From Aurantiacibacter spongiae (GTDB lineage: Bacteria; Pseudomonadota; Alphaproteobacteria; Sphingomonadales; Sphingomonadaceae): DNA of 64,000 nucleotides. The translations under genes and the position numbers were made by a program. A model generated the notes under the pieces. That model searched no databases and was not told where the DNA came from. It worked only from the letters and a program-made list of their open reading frames with translations. Of this stretch, positions 8,763 through 55,773 are shown one piece after another; within the stretch, counting starts at the first letter, position 1; every line of letters begins with the position of its first letter. The stretch is from NCBI RefSeq assembly GCF_003815535.1, contig NZ_RPFZ01000001.1, forward strand, positions 1,550,001-1,614,000, written 5' to 3'.

Positions 8763-10187
8763 ATGGACGGCATGGATCAGATGCGTGGAACTTTCGGAGC
8801 GTTCGATACGGACGAGATCGACGTGGTGGAAGACGAGCCCGCTCACTCTTCCGCCGACGACGCGCCGCCGCCCGCCATCGGCCAGGACGAGCGCCGGATG
8901 CAGGTACGCGCCTACAATTTCTGGGCCGGCCTGCTGGACGAGCGCAGCTTTCCCTCGATCGAGGATCTCGACCCCGATCTGCTTCCCGATTTCGGGCCGC
9001 ATTCGGTGCTGCTCGACTTCTCGCACGGCATCGAGGATCCGCGAATCGGCTATCTCGGTCCGAAACTGGCTGCGGAATGCGACGCGGCGGAGATGGATAT
9101 CGACCGCCTTTCGGATGTGCCGTCGCGCTCGCTGCTGAGCCGCATCACGGATCACTACATGCAGATCCTCGCCAACCAGGCGCCGATCGGGTTCGAGGCC
9201 GAATTCGTCAATCAGCGCGGAGCAACGATTCTTTATCGCGGCATCCTTCTGCCGTTCTCCAGCGATGACGAGACGATCGACTTCATCTTCGGCGTCATCA
9301 ACTGGAAGGAAATGGCCGACAGCCACTCGGCCGACGAGTTGCTGCTGGAAATCGATCAAGCGCTCGATTCGCCGCTAGCCGTGTCGCGCCGCGCGGCAGA
9401 TGGGCTGACCGACTGGGCCGATGGCCCTGGTACGCCGGCGGCGGTCGATAGCGAGCCGGTGCCGCACAAGGATTTGCCGGCACCGACCTTCGGCCTATCC
9501 CATGTCGAACGGCCAGCCGATGACGAGGACGTTCTCGATCTCGATGAGGTGGCCTTTCCGCAGGCTCCGGACAACGCGGACATGGCGCTGGGGGACTGGT
9601 TGGCCGTGGCGCGCGAAATGGCGCGAGCCGCCCGCGCAAGCGAGGATCGCACCCGGGCCGCCCTATACGAGGCGGTCTCGCGAGCGCACGATTTCGCGCT
9701 TGCCGCGGCCCGGGAGCCCGCTGATTTCGCGGCCCTGCTGGAGGATGCCGGAATCGCCATGCAGGATCGCGCGCCAATGACGCCGGTCGTGAAGCTCGTA
9801 TTCGGGGCCGATTACGACAAGACCCGCCTGACCGAATACGCCGCCGTGCTGTCGCTGGCGCAGAGAGAGGGTATTCCGCAAGGAGCGCTCGCCGGATATC
9901 TCGGCAATGCCGAAGGCGGTCTCAAGGGGGTCGTGGCCGCCGAGCGGGCCCACCGCCGCGCTGCTAGCGGGGTGCCGCAGGACGAACGGCCACGGGGTCC
10001 ACGCCTCGCCATCGCGAGGAAGCTGCGCGCGCTTGCCCCGCAGGATTTCACCGCCCTGTCCGATCGGGGCGAGGAGTTCGCCCTCGTCATGATCCGCCGG
10101 ACCGAAGCCGGAGAGGTTGTCGTGCTGGGCGAGGTTCCGGGCAATACGCCGCTGATCGAAAAGGCGGCGCGGGAATTGATCGGCTGA
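8763..10187 (+). CDS. PAS_5 domain protein
   Basis: A 474-residue cytosolic protein. After about 45 acidic residues comes a domain of the alphaproteobacterial PAS_5 type: RAYNFWAGLLDERSFPSIEDL, a long well-conserved run ending in SLLSRITDHYMQILANQ, then LPFSSDDETIDFIFGVINW. The C-terminal 250 residues are helical and variable, with no kinase, GGDEF or helix-turn-helix motif that I can see. The role is probably sensory or scaffolding. ATG 8763 is chosen because AAGGG lies 9 nt upstream; in-frame ATGs at 8772 and 8781 are alternatives, and the longer upstream frame is overlap with the DUF2141 gene. Confidence 0.85.
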   Translation: MDGMDQMRGTFGAFDTDEIDVVEDEPAHSSADDAPPPAIGQDERRMQVRAYNFWAGLLDERSFPSIEDLDPDLLPDFGPHSVLLDFSHGIEDPRIGYLGPKLAAECDAAEMDIDRLSDVPSRSLLSRITDHYMQILANQAPIGFEAEFVNQRGATILYRGILLPFSSDDETIDFIFGVINWKEMADSHSADELLLEIDQALDSPLAVSRRAADGLTDWADGPGTPAAVDSEPVPHKDLPAPTFGLSHVERPADDEDVLDLDEVAFPQAPDNADMALGDWLAVAREMARAARASEDRTRAALYEAVSRAHDFALAAAREPADFAALLEDAGIAMQDRAPMTPVVKLVFGADYDKTRLTEYAAVLSLAQREGIPQGALAGYLGNAEGGLKGVVAAERAHRRAASGVPQDERPRGPRLAIARKLRALAPQDFTALSDRGEEFALVMIRRTEAGEVVVLGEVPGNTPLIEKAARELIG

Positions 10188-48306: not shown

Positions 48307-48443
48307 GATTGCGTAACTTTCCCTATGCCCGAAAGGCTCTGCTGCATCGCATCACGGCCGGTTACGGTCAACCATCCGCGGATGTCGCCGGCGGCCGGCG
48401 GGGTCATTGCCAAGCCTGGCAGGCGCTGGCACATCTGCGCCGG

Positions 48444-49589
48444 ATGCCCTCGACGTCCTCCATCGATGCCTTTCTGGCGTCCGCGCTGCGCGGCGATGAT
48501 CCAGCCTGGCCAGGCGATTGGCTCGCCGAGATGGCAGCCCGGGTAGCTGACCGCATAGCATTTCACGGCATTGATTACGCACTGTTCAGCCGCGCGGACA
48601 TGAGGCCGGGCTGGCCGAAGGCTCTTCTCCAGGGGCTGCGTAGAGGTGCCATGGATCGCGTTTTCTGGGAGGAAATGCATGTCCGCGCCCTGCTCCGCGT
48701 TCTTGGCGGGTTGCGACAGGCCAGCGTTGAAAGCGTACTGCTCAAGGGTACTGCGCTTGCCTATGGCATCTATCCCGATCCCGCAGCGCGCGGCCGGGGC
48801 GATACCGATCTGCTTGTCCGCGAAACCGACGTAAAGGCGGCGCGCGAGGTTCTCAAATCTGCCGGTTTCGTGCGCGCGAATGAGCCGTTCGGTTTGTATT
48901 TTCAGGAAATGTGGGTTCAGGCCCGCGACGACGGGCAGGATCACATCGTAGATTTGCATTGGCGACCGGTGGATTCGCCTGTTCTCCAGCAAGCACTCTG
49001 CGCGGAAGACTGTTTCGCTGACACTTGTGAAGTGCAAGGCCTGGGGCAGGGGGCGAACATGCCGGATCGCGTTTCGTTGTTCCTTCATGGCGCGCTTAAC
49101 CAGGCGTGGCATGCCCGTTTCGGATACTCGATGGGGGCCACCAAGGTATTCGGCGGAGAACGTCTCGTTTGGGCATGCGATACCCATCTGCTCGTGTCGG
49201 CGTTCGAAGCCAGAGACTGGGGGAACCTGGCGGAGCGGGCTCTTGCAGGCGGTAGTGCGCCCGTGTGCATTGCGGCGCTGGAATGGGCGAGGACTGCGCT
49301 GGGCACCGAAGTTCCGGGCGACGTGTTCGAACGCCTGGCCACAGCCGAGACCGATACACCGGTCATGCGCTACCTTCATTCGGAGAGTAACCAGGCCCGG
49401 TTCGTGGCCGACCTTCGGGAGACACCGGGAGTGAGGGAGAAGGGGCGCCTGTTGGCAGGCGCGCTGTTTCCGCCCGCGTGGCATTTGCGCCAGCTGTATC
49501 CCGACGACGCGGATTCGCCGCTCGCCTTTCTGCACATGCGTCGTCTCTCCCGCAATTTCACCAGGAGCGGGCGATTGCTGCGCCGATGA
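48444..49589 (+). CDS. Nucleotidyltransferase family protein (NTP_transf_5 type)
   Basis: A 381-residue protein of the PF14907-like nucleotidyltransferase family often found in RiPP and lasso clusters with an HPr-kinase-like gene. The core reads SVLLKGTALAYGIYPD and GRGDTDLLVRETD, giving G-x-x..D-x-D metal ligands near residues 100-125, followed by IVDLHWRPVDSP. In lasso clusters of Bacillus type, such enzymes further modify the phosphorylated peptide. The start at ATG 48444 is preferred; the upstream open frame has no supporting signal. It overlaps the ABC exporter by 4 nt (ATGA). Confidence 0.8.
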   Translation: MPSTSSIDAFLASALRGDDPAWPGDWLAEMAARVADRIAFHGIDYALFSRADMRPGWPKALLQGLRRGAMDRVFWEEMHVRALLRVLGGLRQASVESVLLKGTALAYGIYPDPAARGRGDTDLLVRETDVKAAREVLKSAGFVRANEPFGLYFQEMWVQARDDGQDHIVDLHWRPVDSPVLQQALCAEDCFADTCEVQGLGQGANMPDRVSLFLHGALNQAWHARFGYSMGATKVFGGERLVWACDTHLLVSAFEARDWGNLAERALAGGSAPVCIAALEWARTALGTEVPGDVFERLATAETDTPVMRYLHSESNQARFVADLRETPGVREKGRLLAGALFPPAWHLRQLYPDDADSPLAFLHMRRLSRNFTRSGRLLRR

Positions 49590-51247
49590 ATTCCCTGCGC
49601 TTCATTCTCGAACTGGCGCAGCCGTATCGCAAAAGTCTTGTCGGCATCAGCGTGCTGACCCTGGCAGGATCGATCTTCACGCTGTCGATACCCTGGCTCG
49701 CCGGGCAGTTGCTCGGCGGAGTGATTGCCGATCGGGCACCGGGTATCCCGCTGGTCGTCATCTTGCTCGTGGGTGCGCTCGTCGCAACCACGGGGCTGCA
49801 GATCGGCAGTACCATTCTTTCAGCCGCGACCTCCGGGCATATCCTCGCCGATCTGCGCTTGCAGGCCTATCGTCACGTTCAGACCTTGCCGCAGAGTTTT
49901 CACGATCGTTCGCGGCAGGGGGAAATGCTGACCCTCATCACCTTCGAAGTCGCGATGCTGAGCACCTTCCTCACCTCCACGCTAGCGACGGTGCCCTCGC
50001 TGCTGCTGACCGCGGCGGGTGCGGTCGTGCTGCTGTTCCTGATCGACCCCGCAATGGCCCTGTTCGTTCCGGTTCTCGTTCCGCTTTTCTACATTCTGGC
50101 GAAACTGGCGGGGCGCCGGCTACGGGTGCTTTCGCGACGAGCCCGCATGGCCGACGCCGATGTCGTCGTGGCTGCCGAGACGAACCTCGACATGCTTCCG
50201 GCGATCAAGGCCTTCGCGATCGAGGACGCGCGAGCCGAAAGCTATTCCAGGGCTCTCGAACGCGCCCGCCTTGTCGCCCTGTCCCATTCCCGTATCGATG
50301 CCGCGCTCGCGCCGGCGATGGGTCTTCTCGCAGCGCTCGCCGCGATCGGACTCGTCCTGACGGCAGGGGCGAGGTTCGAAGCAAATCGCGATCCCGGAGA
50401 CCTCTTCAGCTTTCTCTTCTATGCGGCCCTCCTCGCCCGTCCCGTAGGCGGACTGGCGAACCTCTACGGGCAATTCCAATGGGCGAAGGGTACGCTCACC
50501 CGGTTGCGCATCGTGCTCTCGCGCGATCCCGAACCGGGCTATGCAGCAGGCGAACGACCTTCGCGGATCGCGGGATCCATCTCCTTCCAGGACGTTCATT
50601 TCTCCTATCCCGGGCGCACCGGTCCGCTGCGAGGGGCAAGCCTGGACATCGAAAAGGGCGAGATCGTGGCTCTCACGGGCGCCAACGGCGCAGGGAAATC
50701 GACTCTCGTGAAACTGCTCACGCGATTTTACGAGCCGCAACGGGGAACGATCCTGCTCGACGATACGGACATAGCCGCTATCCACGTGCAGCATTTGCGA
50801 CGGGCGATCGGAATGGTGCCGCAACGCCCCTTGCTGTTTGACGGGACATTGCGCGAAAACATCACGCTCGGGATAAGAAACGTCGATCCGGACCGACTGA
50901 ACGCCGCGATCGATCTCGCGCAGGCTCGAGACCTGGTGAGCGCCCTGCCGGAAGGGCTGGAAACGCGCATCGGCGATCACGGAGTGCGCCTTTCCGGCGG
51001 TCAGGGGCAGCGTATCGGCCTTGCCCGCGCTCTGATCGGCAATCCGCCGATCCTCGTCCTCGACGAGGCGACATCGATGTACGATCTGGAAAGCGAAGCG
51101 GCCTTCGTCAAGGACTGCATGACAGCGCTCGTGGATCGCACGGTCATCATCATCACGCACCGGGCGGCGACGCTCGCGCTCGCCGACCGGGTGGCTGTCG
51201 TCGAGAATGGCGTAATCCGGACAGAAGAATGCAGGCCCACGCGCTAG
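49586..51247 (+). CDS. ABC exporter of the lasso-type cluster (permease and ATPase fused)
   Basis: A 553-residue half-transporter with six membrane helices (residues 15-300) and a C-terminal ATPase. Walker A is TGANGAGKSTLVKLL, the Q loop is GMVPQRPLLFDG, the signature is RLSGGQGQRIGLARAL, Walker B is PPILVLDEATSMYD and the switch His is in IIITHRA. There is no N-terminal C39 peptidase domain, as in lasso exporters (LasD type). Coupled to the nucleotidyltransferase. Its 3' end overlaps the end of the convergent RRE gene by 4 nt. It should export the mature peptide and provide self-immunity. Confidence 0.9.
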   Translation: MNSLRFILELAQPYRKSLVGISVLTLAGSIFTLSIPWLAGQLLGGVIADRAPGIPLVVILLVGALVATTGLQIGSTILSAATSGHILADLRLQAYRHVQTLPQSFHDRSRQGEMLTLITFEVAMLSTFLTSTLATVPSLLLTAAGAVVLLFLIDPAMALFVPVLVPLFYILAKLAGRRLRVLSRRARMADADVVVAAETNLDMLPAIKAFAIEDARAESYSRALERARLVALSHSRIDAALAPAMGLLAALAAIGLVLTAGARFEANRDPGDLFSFLFYAALLARPVGGLANLYGQFQWAKGTLTRLRIVLSRDPEPGYAAGERPSRIAGSISFQDVHFSYPGRTGPLRGASLDIEKGEIVALTGANGAGKSTLVKLLTRFYEPQRGTILLDDTDIAAIHVQHLRRAIGMVPQRPLLFDGTLRENITLGIRNVDPDRLNAAIDLAQARDLVSALPEGLETRIGDHGVRLSGGQGQRIGLARALIGNPPILVLDEATSMYDLESEAAFVKDCMTALVDRTVIIITHRAATLALADRVAVVENGVIRTEECRPTR

Positions 51248-51534
51248 CGGGTGCCCCCTTCATCCAGCGATATCAGTTTATGCTCGAGCATGTCGCTGGC
51301 GAGGGCCAACACGTCGGTTCGCGCGACCTGCGTGTCTATGCCGTATTTCTCGATCAGCAGATCACTCAGGGCGGCTATGGTTCGGCCATTGTCGGAAAGG
51401 GCCTCCCACAGTATCGCCCCCACCGAATTCAGGCCGTAATACGTGCCGGCGTCGAGGTGGAGCAGCACCATCTCGCCGCCCACCTGGCGAGCTACGACGT
51501 TGTCTGCCTGTACGATGCGGTCGTCGAGCTTCAT
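51244..51534 (-). CDS. PqqD-like RRE protein (lasso B1)
   Basis: A 96-residue PqqD-fold RiPP recognition element. The sequence VARQVGGEMVLLHLDAGTYYGLNSVGAILWEAL and LLIEKYGIDTQVARTDVLALASDMLEHKLI is typical of stand-alone B1 proteins, which bind the leader and deliver it to B2. It is the last gene of the minus-strand operon C-A-K-B1, 12 nt after the kinase. Confidence 0.92.
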   Translation of the reverse strand: MKLDDRIVQADNVVARQVGGEMVLLHLDAGTYYGLNSVGAILWEALSDNGRTIAALSDLLIEKYGIDTQVARTDVLALASDMLEHKLISLDEGGTR

Positions 51535-51546
51535 GAGCCTCCGGCT

Positions 51547-52485
51547 TCAGCGATACCGAGCGACGAGTGTCGCGATGACTTCGGGCAGGTGATCGAATTG
51601 CCGGGGGTAGTCAAGCGCTAGGCAGGGAACCATTCGTGCAAGGTCCGCCATGCGATCGAAATGGGCCTGCAGACGCTGTCGATCCTCGACATCCAGGATG
51701 AAAGCGTGGTTCAGCATCTCTGCGAGGGCGGCGGCCTCTCCCACCGGTTCGATCGAAACGGTTGGCGCCGTTCCCGGGCCGAGAATGTGAATGGCGGCCA
51801 GTGGCAGGCTGCGATCGGCAAACGGAATCTCGGCTGCGAACGCATAGTCGGCCTTCTCGCCGACCGCGCTGTTGGTCTCGCGCTCGCCGAAAAGATAGCG
51901 GGCGCTGTCGCCAAAGACGCGCAAGGATGGCCGCATCGGTTGAACCCAGAAGTCGTCGCCCCTTCGTTCGAGGGCGAGCACGTCTTCGCTGACCAGGGGA
52001 TGCCCGGTTCGCGCCATGGCCCCGGCCAGCGTCGTCTTGCCCCGGCGGGACAGGCCCGTGAACGCGACGGCCACATCTCCGATGGCGACCGCGCTGCCAT
52101 GCAGGTTCAGGCCGTTGCCGTGATTGCCGAGCATCGGCAGGACCGAGTTTCGGTAGAGGGTATCGACAACCGACGCTGAAAGGCCGGGAACCGGCACGCA
52201 AATCGCCACCTGCGTGCCGGCATCGATATGGAAGTCCGCTTGTCCGCGGAATCGAACGAGGTAGCCGCCGTTCTCGCGGTGGAACTCCGCCAGCGTATCA
52301 CCCGCGGGCGTAATCCAGCGGTCGTATGGTTCCCGTGCAAGCGCCACCTGTTCGCGGGCCGGGTGCTTTTCGAGACGCGTCACGAACCTTTCCCTGCGCC
52401 AGTGACTCGCACATCCGGGCTGGGTCTTGCCGGTGAGCGCGTCCGCACTGCATACGACAACGCCGGACCTCGCGGCCCGGCGCAT
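51547..52485 (-). CDS. HPr-kinase-like peptide kinase of the lasso cluster
   Basis: A protein of about 312 residues related to the C-terminal domain of HPr kinase/phosphorylase. P-loop VAFTGLSRRGKTTLAGAMA (GxxxxGKT), then HPLVSEDVLALE with the acidic pair position, and PMRPSLRVFG. In lasso clusters of Firmicutes (paeninodin ThcoK type) such kinases phosphorylate the C-terminal serine of the precursor. The start is uncertain: ATG 52485 is 25 nt after the precursor stop. The longer open frame overlaps the precursor gene and is rejected. Confidence 0.82.
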   Translation of the reverse strand: MRRAARSGVVVCSADALTGKTQPGCASHWRRERFVTRLEKHPAREQVALAREPYDRWITPAGDTLAEFHRENGGYLVRFRGQADFHIDAGTQVAICVPVPGLSASVVDTLYRNSVLPMLGNHGNGLNLHGSAVAIGDVAVAFTGLSRRGKTTLAGAMARTGHPLVSEDVLALERRGDDFWVQPMRPSLRVFGDSARYLFGERETNSAVGEKADYAFAAEIPFADRSLPLAAIHILGPGTAPTVSIEPVGEAAALAEMLNHAFILDVEDRQRLQAHFDRMADLARMVPCLALDYPRQFDHLPEVIATLVARYR

Positions 52486-52510: not shown

Positions 52511-52897
52511 CTAGTGAAGCGTAACGCCGATCTTGCCGTAATCCACGAGCCGGTATCCGTCCTCACGAGTGATGACAGCGTCAGGCGCGATATCGGCAAT
52601 CTCGTCCGCCATGACGCCGAAGCGACGACCGTGACCGAACTCATCCCTGAACTCGGCCTTGTAATCGAACAGATACAGGCCGAATCCGGCCGGATGCTGA
52701 CCGACCTCGACCACGTTTTCCTTGAAGCGCGGATCGGAACCGAAGCCGCCGCCGCCCTGCGTACGGGCGCGGACCCCGCCGCCGTCGTTCTGCGTTCCGG
52801 TGCTGCCGCCCGTCAGATTGCGAACCGTACCGTAAACGGTAAGCTGCGGACGCACATACTGGCTGTCGCGACTTTCATTTGCGTGATTGTTGCTCAT
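52511..52897 (-). CDS. Lasso-type RiPP precursor fused to an S74-like domain
   Basis: A 128-residue precursor. Residues 14-30 fit the canonical lasso leader YxxPxLxxxGxxxxxTx exactly: Tyr14, Pro17, Leu19, Gly23, Thr29 at -2. The core would begin at Gly31 and has Asp38 at position 8, giving a Gly1-Asp8 macrolactam. Residues 31-54 are GSTGTQND followed by a Gly-rich tail ending in FGS. From Ser54 the sequence SDPRFKENVVEVG, LYLFDYKAEFRDEFG, RFGVMADEIADIAPDAV and YRLVDYGKIG is that of peptidase-S74/tail-spike intramolecular chaperone domains, with Ser54 and Lys59 spaced as in the SDxxxK dyad. AAGGA stands 8 nt before the ATG. The gene lies between cyclase and kinase. Confidence 0.85.
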   Translation of the reverse strand: MSNNHANESRDSQYVRPQLTVYGTVRNLTGGSTGTQNDGGGVRARTQGGGGFGSDPRFKENVVEVGQHPAGFGLYLFDYKAEFRDEFGHGRRFGVMADEIADIAPDAVITREDGYRLVDYGKIGVTLH

Positions 52898-52909: not shown

Positions 52910-54796
52910 TCATCGGAGCGATGCGTCCAGCTCCGTCAATATTTCACCTACGTATACACCCCATAGAGGCCATAAGGGCTTTTCGTCAATTGCTGCGACG
53001 CAATAATCGGCGAAAAGTTCCGGAATTGCGTTGATTTTCAGAATTTCTGCAGCGCCCTGATGATGGGGAGCAGATATGTATCTTTGCTTAAGTGCCGGGA
53101 TGTGCCGATAGTAGGTTTCGCTGAATTCCGCCTTGTCGACCCGGGCGATGACACCGGGGGGAAGCAATCCGGTCATGGCGCGCCGATGCACGAATTTCCG
53201 GGTTCTTCCACGAAGGCGGATATGCTCGGGCGTGGCCGCAGAAAATTCGATAAATCTTCGCGATAGCATCGGGCTGCGGCTGGAAAGACCGTTGCGGGCC
53301 AACTGCCGTTCTCGCAGTTCGAGCGCCATCGCCAGCGCTCCGGATCGATGCTTTCGCTGCCGGAAACTTACCGACTCGTTGCGATCCAGGGTGTCGAGAT
53401 AGCGTTCGGCGCGCCGCATCACTTCCCGCCGCGATGGTTCGTCGAGCCAATGCGCCCTACCTGTCTCGCCGGGGGGCATTTCGCCGGTGACGCGGCGCGC
53501 GAATCGCTTCAGCGCGGGGGGCAGGAACTGGCCGAGGCCCAATCGCAGGAGCAGGCGTATCGCCCGGTAGGCACCGAGGTCGGCGGCATCATCCGCATAA
53601 CGGGACTTCAGGTTTCGCCAGTCTCGTTCGCGTACCAGTTCCCTGTAATAGCGGCGGCTGCCGTCCAGCCAATGATCGCCGCCATGGCCGTTGAGCGCGA
53701 CGCGGCAGCCATCTGCCGCCATCCTCTCCTCGAGTTCGAGCGACATCGCGGAATTCGGGTACATCGGCATGTCGCGATCGTCTCGCGCCCGCTCGGCGAA
53801 CCAGAAAAGGTCCGGAAAGACGAGAGGGGCGCGGGCGATCGACACGCCAAGGTGATCTTCTATCGCTTCGACGTAAGCGATCTCGTCCGCAGCGGAGCCC
53901 GGTTCACCAGTCAGAGTATAGCCGCGAAGGGCAGGAGCGGGCAGTCGACCTTCCTGTTCCAGGTTGTGCGCAACCGCGAAAACCGCGGAAGAATCGAGGC
54001 CGCCGCTAACTTCGCATGCGAGCGGACGATGGGTACGCGCGGCGTGCCCTACGCATTCGTTCAGCAATTGCCGGTAATGTTCGACGTAATCCTCTTCGCG
54101 CTGGTATCGAATTCGGTCCGAAGCGGGCAGTCTCCAGTATTCTTCGAGCCGCAGATCCCCGTCCCGCAACGTCAGTGAATACGCCTGTTCCAGTCGCTTC
54201 ACGCCGGACCAGACCGTCTCGTCAAGGCTCCACCATTCGTCCGCCATGATTTCCGCGAGGTAGCCCTCGTTCAGCGCGGGGGGATCGGCAAGACCCGCCA
54301 GCAGGGCCGCCATGTCGGAGGCGATTACGAGTGTCTGACCATCCCACCGGTACAGGAGCGGCCGCAAACCCTGGTGGTCGCGCGCCGCGTAGGCCATCCG
54401 CCGGCGCGCATCCCATACGACGAAGGCAAATTCGCCTTCCAGACGGCGAGGCAGGTCGGTCCCCCAGCGCCGCCAACCGCTCATCACCAGTTCGGCGTCG
54501 CTCCTGCCGGGCCGGACATGGCCCGACTGTTCCAGATCGCGCAGCAGGTCATCGCGGTTCGCAAGGTAGCCGGCGAATGCAAGGACCAGGTCGCCGGCCT
54601 CGTCCTGGAGCGGTTGTCTAGACTGCGCGCATTGCCGCGTGGTGTGCAGCGCACAGAAGCCGATCGCCGCCCCGTGACCGTGCCAGTGCGAGATGCCGTC
54701 GGGACCGCGATAGGCCATCGCATCTGTCATGGCTTCAACCACGGATGGTTCGAGCGACGCCCCATCCCTGCGGAAGATCGCGGCGATTCCGCTCAC
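52910..54796 (-). CDS. Lasso macrolactam synthetase (asparagine synthase-like, C protein)
   Basis: A 628-residue asparagine synthetase homologue. The GTG start (54796) with GAGG about 8 nt upstream gives VSGIAAIFRRDG. The N-terminal Cys2 of true glutamine amidotransferases is replaced by Ser, so no glutaminase activity is expected, as in lasso cyclases. YRGPDGISHW and GEFAFVVWD are retained from the Ntn domain. The synthetase domain has the PP-loop CEVSGGLDSSAVFAVA and HGGDHWLDG. Its role is to adenylate the side-chain acid (predicted Asp8) and close the ring on Gly1. It heads the operon C-A-K-B1; 12 nt separate it from the precursor gene. Confidence 0.9.
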   Translation of the reverse strand: MSGIAAIFRRDGASLEPSVVEAMTDAMAYRGPDGISHWHGHGAAIGFCALHTTRQCAQSRQPLQDEAGDLVLAFAGYLANRDDLLRDLEQSGHVRPGRSDAELVMSGWRRWGTDLPRRLEGEFAFVVWDARRRMAYAARDHQGLRPLLYRWDGQTLVIASDMAALLAGLADPPALNEGYLAEIMADEWWSLDETVWSGVKRLEQAYSLTLRDGDLRLEEYWRLPASDRIRYQREEDYVEHYRQLLNECVGHAARTHRPLACEVSGGLDSSAVFAVAHNLEQEGRLPAPALRGYTLTGEPGSAADEIAYVEAIEDHLGVSIARAPLVFPDLFWFAERARDDRDMPMYPNSAMSLELEERMAADGCRVALNGHGGDHWLDGSRRYYRELVRERDWRNLKSRYADDAADLGAYRAIRLLLRLGLGQFLPPALKRFARRVTGEMPPGETGRAHWLDEPSRREVMRRAERYLDTLDRNESVSFRQRKHRSGALAMALELRERQLARNGLSSRSPMLSRRFIEFSAATPEHIRLRGRTRKFVHRRAMTGLLPPGVIARVDKAEFSETYYRHIPALKQRYISAPHHQGAAEILKINAIPELFADYCVAAIDEKPLWPLWGVYVGEILTELDASLR

Positions 54797-54904
54797 GCCG
54801 GTATCCTCGCAAGCTGCATCAGCGAATTCCTCCGAATTGCCGCGCCACGGATGGCCGGGTCGCCCCTTGTTGGCTTGGAACCATGATTGTGCGAAGTCTT
54901 GCCC

Positions 54905-55372
54905 ATGAAAGACCGCCTCGCGCAACCCGCACGCTTTCGCGGATCGAGTTGGAGCAGTCCGCACCGTATCGTTCGGATGCTTCGCGGGGCGCCGCGCGCA
55001 ACCTATGAACTGTCGCGCGCGCGACTGGCCCTCCGCACGCTCGGGATCGCCGATATCGAGCAGCGAAACGCCCTGTCCAGCGATCGCGGGCGCGACCCCG
55101 ACGCCGCGCGTCCCGATGACGCGGAGATTGCCGCCCGCGCCGGTTTCGTGATCGAACGGCTTGCTTCGCGGATGCCCTTCAGATCGGACTGCCTCGTACG
55201 CGCCCTGGCGGCGCAAAGTTGGCTGACCCAAAGGGGGATCGCGACGCGCATCGTCATCGGCGCGCAATTCTCCCCCTCGCGCGAATTCGGACCGCACGCC
55301 TGGCTTTCTTACGGCGAAACGATCGTGACCGGAGGTGATGTAGCCCCCTATACGGTTCTTTATGACGGGTAG
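54905..55372 (+). CDS. Lasso leader peptidase B2 (transglutaminase-like)
   Basis: A 155-residue protein of the transglutaminase-core-3 family (lasso B2). The catalytic triad is readable: Cys96 in RSDCLVRALAAQSWL, His131 in FGPHAWLSYGE and Asp145 in VTGGDVAPY. It removes the leader after the Thr-x pair with help of the RRE protein B1. It is divergent from the cyclase gene, with a 108-nt shared upstream region. ATG 54905 is chosen; the open frame extends to GTG 54887. Confidence 0.93.
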   Translation: MKDRLAQPARFRGSSWSSPHRIVRMLRGAPRATYELSRARLALRTLGIADIEQRNALSSDRGRDPDAARPDDAEIAARAGFVIERLASRMPFRSDCLVRALAAQSWLTQRGIATRIVIGAQFSPSREFGPHAWLSYGETIVTGGDVAPYTVLYDG

Positions 55373-55419: not shown

Positions 55420-55463
55420 ATTACGTAATCGACCTTGAATTTTTTGCTGCGTTGCGGTAGAAA
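55420..55463 (+). promoter_or_regulatory. Candidate promoter with adjacent 10-bp palindrome
   Basis: TTGAAT (55435-55440), 17 nt, then TAGAAA (55458-55463), a sigma-70-like arrangement 44 nt before the ATG of the small secreted protein. The perfect palindrome ATTACGTAAT occupies 55420-55429 just upstream of the -35 and may be an operator. Confidence 0.4.
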
Positions 55464-55506
55464 AGGGCAAATCGAACAAATCCGTGGCTATTTCAGGAGC
55501 CAAACA

Positions 55507-55773
55507 ATGACGAAGAACATTCTCGCCGGACTGGCCGCCACGACCATGGTTTTCGCCCCGATCGCTGCCCAGGCCGGTACTCGTGCCATCGATTCCGATG
55601 TGTCGCTCGCCTCGCTCGATCGCGCTGGTGCCGATTACTCTGGTGGCGAGGAAATCGGCCTCGCTGGCAAGGTGGGCTACCTTCTTGCCCTCCTTATTGC
55701 CGCAGGCGTCGTCATCGTCATCGTCACCGATGGTGACGAAGATAACGGCAACGCGTCGCCCGGCGCCAACTGA
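55507..55773 (+). CDS. Small secreted/membrane protein
   Basis: An 88-residue protein with AGGAG 7 nt before the ATG. A signal peptide (ILAGLAATTMVFAPIAAQAG) is followed by a short acidic middle (SDVSLASLD, GGEEIG), one membrane helix (VGYLLALLIAAGVVIVIV) and an acidic tail DGDEDNGNASPGAN. Small proteins of this layout are common near polysaccharide genes of sphingomonads but I know no assigned function. It has its own promoter candidate and a strong terminator, so it is a separate, probably highly expressed unit. Confidence 0.8.
   Translation: MTKNILAGLAATTMVFAPIAAQAGTRAIDSDVSLASLDRAGADYSGGEEIGLAGKVGYLLALLIAAGVVIVIVTDGDEDNGNASPGAN

Follow-up and report, generated by a model that had tools for sequence, protein, structure and literature searches.

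A gene in a 64,000-nucleotide stretch of the Aurantiacibacter spongiae genome (contig NZ_RPFZ01000001.1, positions 1,550,001 to 1,614,000; hereafter the window) encodes a lasso peptide precursor of 128 residues in which the predicted core is followed by a domain of the Peptidase_S74 family. We consider it probable that this precursor comprises three parts, namely a leader, a core and a C-terminal self-cleaving S74 follower, the last being a minimal version of the phage-type autoprotease. The design itself is real, being present in over two hundred sequences that were read, and its conservation suggests, without proving, that the peptide is freed when the precursor cuts off its own C-terminal tail.

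Leader, ring residues and S74 domain in one precursor

The precursor open reading frame (ORF) is complete from ATG to stop, has an AAGGA sequence 7 nucleotides 5' of the ATG, and begins after a 12-nucleotide gap from the end of the upstream cyclase ORF; this ribosome site and the conservation of the protein rule out a spurious ORF. Its leader fits the motif YxxPxLxxxGxxxxxTx at each fixed position (Y14, P17, L19, G23 and T29), as claimed in an earlier note made from the sequence alone, which gave no strand for the ORF. In an alignment of 111 family members Y14 is retained in 110 and P17 in 109, while G23 and T29 are both present in all 111. Residues 14-31 are hit by NF033521, the lasso-leader model of NCBIfam, at 16.6 bits, under its cut-off of 19; in our view this 20-position model is not a defining feature of the lasso precursor class. 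Immediately after the leader, Gly31 and Asp38, that is core positions 1 and 8, are placed for an 8-residue ring.

The C-terminal domain of 75 residues opens with SDPRFK at residue 54, so that the Ser-Lys dyad of the S74 proteins corresponds to Ser54 and Lys59. With 27.4 bits it exceeds the gathering score of the Pfam profile PF13884 (22), whose positions 1-57 align to residues 54-108, and its AlphaFold2 model, with block means of 84-94 for residues 51-120 and 83 for residues 121-128, shows the ICA fold in searches that recover the S74/ICA structures 7dc3, 3gw6 and 3gud, although the PDB Foldseek E-values are weak if taken alone. All ten phage matches to the domain start at residue 54 or 55. 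Phe77 and Tyr79, which are invariant in the 111 sequences, align with Y615 and Y617 of the S74 protein MyRF (numbering hand-counted from K592), where double mutation of these tyrosines abolishes cutting at P586-S587 (PMC8326128; this and the other papers are cited from excerpts).

The first protein search, which admits only proteins of 0.55-1.75 times the query length, yielded 108 proteins including the query. The full leader motif is present in 97 of these, and because all 97 carry D/E at core positions 7-9 the leader match is not due to chance. The alignment of 111 consists of the query, 101 of the 107 other proteins and 9 genomic loci; P0029, P0088, P0099, P0100, P0101 and P0103 were excluded because they were short, lacked a leader or were aberrant, and loci L001 and L148 are not part of it. 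The acid at core positions 7-9 and Lys59 are present in all 111 sequences, with Ser54 in 110 and Cys in its place in one. A second search, using a profile of 21 distant members, recovered 2363 proteins at E 1e-3, and the 109 new ones among the best 120 read uniformly contain the leader, D/E at positions 7-9, the Ser and a Lys five residues on. The two sets, which include the window protein (n=220), show the ring acid in 220, Ser in 219, Cys in one and Lys in 220, and the acid in 220 of 220, along with the surrounding lasso cluster, likewise rules out a chance leader match. Elsewhere in the core D/E is scarce, its frequency not exceeding 0.10 in the set of 111 (positions 1-6 and 10-14) or 0.06 in the second set (positions 1-6 and 10-12). 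Thus, the Gly1-Asp8 ring pair, the S74-like extra part and the SDxxxK motif with Ser54 and Lys59 of the earlier note all stand: the S74 fold, the acid and the Ser/Lys pair, whose absence it had named as grounds for abandoning the proposal, are present, and the other lasso leaders fused to S74 that it advised looking for exist in number.

Source names of the family proteins include Burkholderiales, Ca. Competibacteraceae and Erythrobacter, and their annotations read, for example, 'tail fiber domain-containing protein' or 'hypothetical protein'. The fused precursor is rare among the genomes searched, though many metagenome proteins match. At family level 5 of 397 genomes carry a full-length fused precursor, at order level 6 of 396, spread over 2 of the 84 genera, and at phylum level 3 of 398, where 17 genomes have any match and the other matches cover the S74 part only. 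Within the genus (40 genomes) the fused form is present in 9, with matches to the leader part only in 11, and among relatives of the L001 genome it was found in 2 of 148, one of them with a stop. None of 369 genomes of the class of G838 had a fused precursor, a null result that, having no positive control, carries no weight; the plasmid search gave one S74-only match. Judged by title and abstract, no report of a lasso-S74 fusion is present among the matches listed from the open-licence literature. One of the omitted proteins, P0100 (80 residues), consists of an S74 domain with just three residues ahead of the SD motif and is perhaps one half of a split pair of leader-core and S74 genes.

The end of the core

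The predicted core of the window protein, GSTGTQNDGGGVRARTQGGGGFG (residues 31-53), is lasso-sized at 23 residues only given a cut at Ser54; otherwise 98 residues follow the leader, one more than the earlier note had counted. There is good support for a natural core end directly before Ser54, chiefly from comparison of fused precursors with unfused ones. Examples of unfused cores at the same locus are GSAGPNGDVMGTFMAMP, GSGGTTTGDSTTMDMF and GSAGPANGDAGIMKF, and fused cores, read up to the residue before the Ser, include GSLGTAGDGGVMNMLM, GSLGDVGDGGVQSMVM and GSIGDVGDAAGMNMVM. The length from the leader cut to Ser54 has a median of 18 (14-30) in 111 fused precursors, the corresponding median of the 18 different unfused cores being 17 (15-26; p 0.10), and Met makes up 26% of the last five core residues in the fused and 22% in the unfused versions. 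This match in length and in Met-rich ends suggests that the S74 domain seems to be attached where a normal core ends. In the alignment of 111 the stretch directly before Ser54 is variable, and the window core, which is Gly-rich, lies at the long end of the range.

The L001 gene (VMTF01000282.1, 8066-8450, plus strand) has a TAG stop codon exactly at the Ser position, with the S74 frame intact behind it; if this stop is real, the gene would make exactly the core expected from a cut before the Ser. No S74 remnant was seen behind the stop of the unfused precursors at 21 loci, which gave 20 rows and 18 different cores (none from L081 and L083), or in four further unfused rows, leaving L001 as the sole case with one. 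On a tree built from 22 cyclases, the distribution of fused and unfused precursors takes 4 changes to explain, of which starred (well-supported) branches force at least 2, and the window cyclase groups with two unfused clusters (support 89/86, not starred). Therefore the fusion has been gained, lost or swapped more than once, and the S74 domain behaves as a detachable module.

The position of the proposed cut is taken from MyRF, which is cleaved between P586 and S587, N-terminal of its Ser (PMC8326128, PMC6972908). The cleavage after Ser54 and the 24-residue core of the earlier note accordingly give way to a predicted cut before Ser54 and 23 residues.

Proposed self-cleavage and the competing explanations

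In the proposed pathway the leader would first be bound by B1, the core may then be phosphorylated by the HprK-like kinase, and B2 would cut after Gly30. The cyclase C would then join Gly31 to Asp38 at a time when the folded S74 domain still holds the tail of the core. With Lys59 acting as the base and Ser54 as the nucleophile, the domain would subsequently cut the bond before Ser54, and the 23-residue lasso peptide would be freed, presumably for export. A bulky follower is compatible with ring closure, since the pandonodin enzymes close the ring despite a 98-residue C-terminal extension on the precursor (PMC13003496). Mutants of MyRF in S587 to Ala and in K592 block cleavage and S587C retains it (PMC3742440); the activity of the latter fits the sole Ser to Cys substitution in the lasso family. 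The kinase BsfK phosphorylates a ring Ser, Ser3 of its lasso core (PMC10368454), and Ser, frequent at core position 2 in the present family (63 of 111), is a candidate phosphorylation site only.

Several observations weigh against this pathway. Cleavage by this S74 domain is itself a prediction. The domain is devoid of a C-terminal trimerizing helix: its model aligns to MyRF 606-679, ending where the MyRF helix (N670-K705) begins, and beyond Tyr120 only 8 residues remain in 80 of the 111 sequences, including that of the window, and no more than 19 in the others. We know of no cleavage test of this helix-less S74 type. In MyRF the helix drives trimerization as a three-stranded coil (PMC8326128), and the protein cuts only as a trimer, zipper mutants remaining uncut (PMC8326128, PMC6972908). 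S74 proteins that do not belong to the lasso family have the Ser-Lys pair too, and its conservation is for this reason not specific to a lasso role. Further, the window core is without Met, unlike the relatives that give the most striking match to unfused cores, and the L001 stop comes from one metagenome-assembled genome and may be an error. B2 is absent from 5 of the 11 fused clusters, an ABC exporter lies beside only 3 of the 11 (a distant match in two), and two fused genes stand alone with no lasso genes near (L035 9782-10174; L099 9330-9695). The idea of a built-in protease that trims the C-terminus, raised in the earlier note, thus retains the lasso cluster, the S74 fold, the dyad and the lasso-sized piece in its favor, and has the missing trimerizing helix against it.

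Within the same bacterial family other proteins, too, have helix-less S74 domains (L008, L009, L011 and L023), and further ones, such as L024-L028, have longer S74 tails. S74 domains without an evident coiled-coil tail additionally end Gly-rich frames of 559-589 residues in other genomes of the same class (L118-L122 and L124).

The missing helix that MyRF needs for cleavage, taken together with an exporter beside 3 of 11 fused against 9 of 12 unfused clusters, could also mean that the S74 domain stays on, the product being a ringed protein, or a lassoed one, whose domain would anchor the ring, display it or permanently plug it against unthreading. Such a product appears unlikely given that the Ser or Cys and the Lys are kept in 220 of 220 sequences, that the fused cores match the unfused ones in length and end, and that the stop codon in L001 falls exactly at the Ser. 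It is quite unlikely that the domain aids folding or solubility and is later removed by a separate cell protease, with Ser54 and Lys59 kept for the fold. This would draw on the same evidence for a core ending before Ser54, and the missing helix may have cost the domain its self-cleavage, yet Ser at the edge of a variable stretch is replaced only by Cys, once in 111, which is the form active in MyRF (S587C; PMC3742440). That part of the family has kept the leader and makes no lasso, the kinase, methyltransferase and cyclase modifying the S74 protein for another purpose, is highly improbable: the missing local B2 and the two orphan genes would agree with it, but all 220 sequences retain the ring residues, the window cluster is complete, and the B2-less genomes that were read hold a B2-like and an ABC gene elsewhere.

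The clusters with B2 inside are those of the window, L001, L085, L086, L087 and L148. Comparison of B2 presence in fused and unfused clusters (5/10 against 11/12) gives a Fisher p of 0.056, ignoring relatedness. One of the unfused exporters is at an unusual place, and the corresponding exporter contrast (2/10 against 9/12), made before L148 was added and ignoring relatedness, gives p 0.03; the L085 contig ends soon after the cluster, limiting inference on its ABC gene. All six genomes read that have a B2-less cluster (five fused, one unfused) carry a B2-like gene next to an ABC gene elsewhere. When complete, this second locus also contains a further cyclase-like gene, which is absent in 5 of the 6 B2-less genomes and present in 5 of 5 comparison genomes (p 0.015, ignoring relatedness; about 0.08, hand-reckoned, if L149 is counted against). 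L149 has a B2-like match (49%), with the remainder not within 12 kb, in a genome that is 74% complete. On the whole, this suggests that removal of the leader and export of the product may be provided in trans.

A second cluster type occurs in the genome of the window itself (C1:848000-867500, L063) and in L068, L101, L104, L105 and L110. It combines cyclase-like, HprK-like, sulfotransferase-like, mostly nucleotidyltransferase, B2-like, ABC and PAS/LOV-like genes (partly assigned by eye), and no YxxPxL leader was found in it. Of the 35 loci covered around B2-like genes, 11 represent this second locus, whether or not the cyclase-like gene is present (L063-L066, L068, L100-L102, L104, L105 and L110), with G411:C27 left out; the remaining 24, with poor matches or none, do not enter the count. 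A control of 16 loci around B2-like genes of the genus gave no case of this locus type, L149 being ambiguous.

Genomic context, known relatives and implications

Table 1. Features of the precursor and its cluster; positions are those of the window.
Feature	Position	Strand	Basis
Lasso precursor A fused to S74 domain, 128 residues	52511..52897	minus	ORF, Pfam, NCBIfam
Leader, residues 1-30, YxxPxLxxxGxxxxxTx	52808..52897	minus	sequence and conservation
Predicted 23-residue core, residues 31-53, ring Gly31-Asp38	52739..52807	minus	sequence, conserved acid
S74 follower domain, residues 54-128	52514..52738	minus	Pfam, AlphaFold2, fold searches
Ser54 codon	52736-52738	minus	
Lys59 codon	52721-52723	minus	
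Lasso cyclase C, asparagine-synthetase type	52910..54796	minus	start by homology near 54796; ORF continues to 55390
HprK-like kinase	51547..52383	minus	GTG start placed from relatives; ORF to 52644
B1, PqqD-like leader-binding protein (RRE by analogy)	51244..51534	minus	Pfam PqqD, 63 bits
B2 leader peptidase	54887..55372	plus	NF033537, 61.3 bits, cut-off 33
ABC exporter	49478..51247	plus	Pfam ABC_membrane, ABC_tran
NTP_transf_5 nucleotidyltransferase of the cluster	48309..49589	plus	Pfam PF14907, 95 bits

With B1, B2 and C all present, the window cluster is complete (Table 1). The cyclase scores 292 bits with NF033535, below the cut-off of 525, and is above the cut-offs of Pfam Asn_synthase and GATase_7. 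The kinase is below those of TIGR04352 (25 bits) and Hpr_kinase_C (20 bits), and occupies the same position in the relatives. The gene order common to the clusters read is C, A, (methyltransferase), kinase and B1. The cluster is flanked by a Wzy gene (Pfam Wzy_C) on one side and an RmlA-like gene, named by eye, on the other; both flanks recur in 17 of 22 relative loci, L148 not being among these. Between B2 and the Wzy gene a small protein with a signal-like start, judged by eye (55435-55773, plus strand), has counterparts in many relative clusters and no Pfam or NCBIfam match. The optional methyltransferase, of 322-386 residues, is a class-I S-adenosylmethionine enzyme, PRMT-like by eye, lying between A and the kinase (e.g. 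L034 7739-8863). It is present in 17 of 21 relative cluster loci and absent from the window, the fused L086 and L087 and the unfused L039 and L092; a link between S74 fusion and methyltransferase loss was rejected, since the last two also lack the gene. One cluster, L091, carries two unfused precursors in tandem (8934-9107 and 9463-9591).

Precursors of the paeninodin and BsfA type end with the core; in the present precursor a 75-residue S74 domain follows it. Their split-B clusters with HprK-like kinases share the leader motif, B1, B2, C and the kinase, and C-terminal Ser or Asp residues are mentioned for such kinase-type precursors (PMC10368454). The S74/ICA domains of phage tailspikes and MyRF are alike in fold, in the start at the Ser, in the Ser-Lys pair and in the aromatics around the cut; they differ in the trimerizing helix discussed above and in the N-terminal partner, a triple beta-helix there and a peptide core here. 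Helix-less S74 domains of phages (Rhizobium phage RHph_N2, Octadecabacter Antarctic DB virus 2 and Pseudoalteromonas vB_PspP-H6/1) share the Ser, the Lys and a similarly short C-terminus, although these end structural or ejection virion proteins of 301-358 residues rather than a lasso precursor. Followers of the bottromycin type also stand C-terminal to a core and need removal, which is performed by a separate enzyme, PurAH/BotAH (PMC10885120), in contrast to the proposed self-cleavage. The engineered fusions of astexin-1 and pandonodin similarly join a lasso core to a long C-terminal part (PMC13003496), but are man-made, while the present fusion is natural.

If the proposed self-cleavage is true, release of the C-terminus, the last step of the pathway, would be written into the substrate by a domain known from phages, and the precursor would represent a ribosomally synthesized and post-translationally modified peptide with a cis-acting follower that removes itself. 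It would also explain why some such genes bear the name 'tail fiber domain-containing protein'. Searches that look for lasso precursors among short ORFs may miss fused genes of this kind. As a tentative extension, the minimal phage S74 autoprotease might be a built-in threading tool, a peg that holds the tail during ring closure and then cuts without the trimer on which MyRF and the phage proteins depend, in a large and overlooked class of lasso peptides. How lasso threading is held until ring closure would thereby become a directly testable question, and the domain could provide a self-removing tag for lasso engineering.
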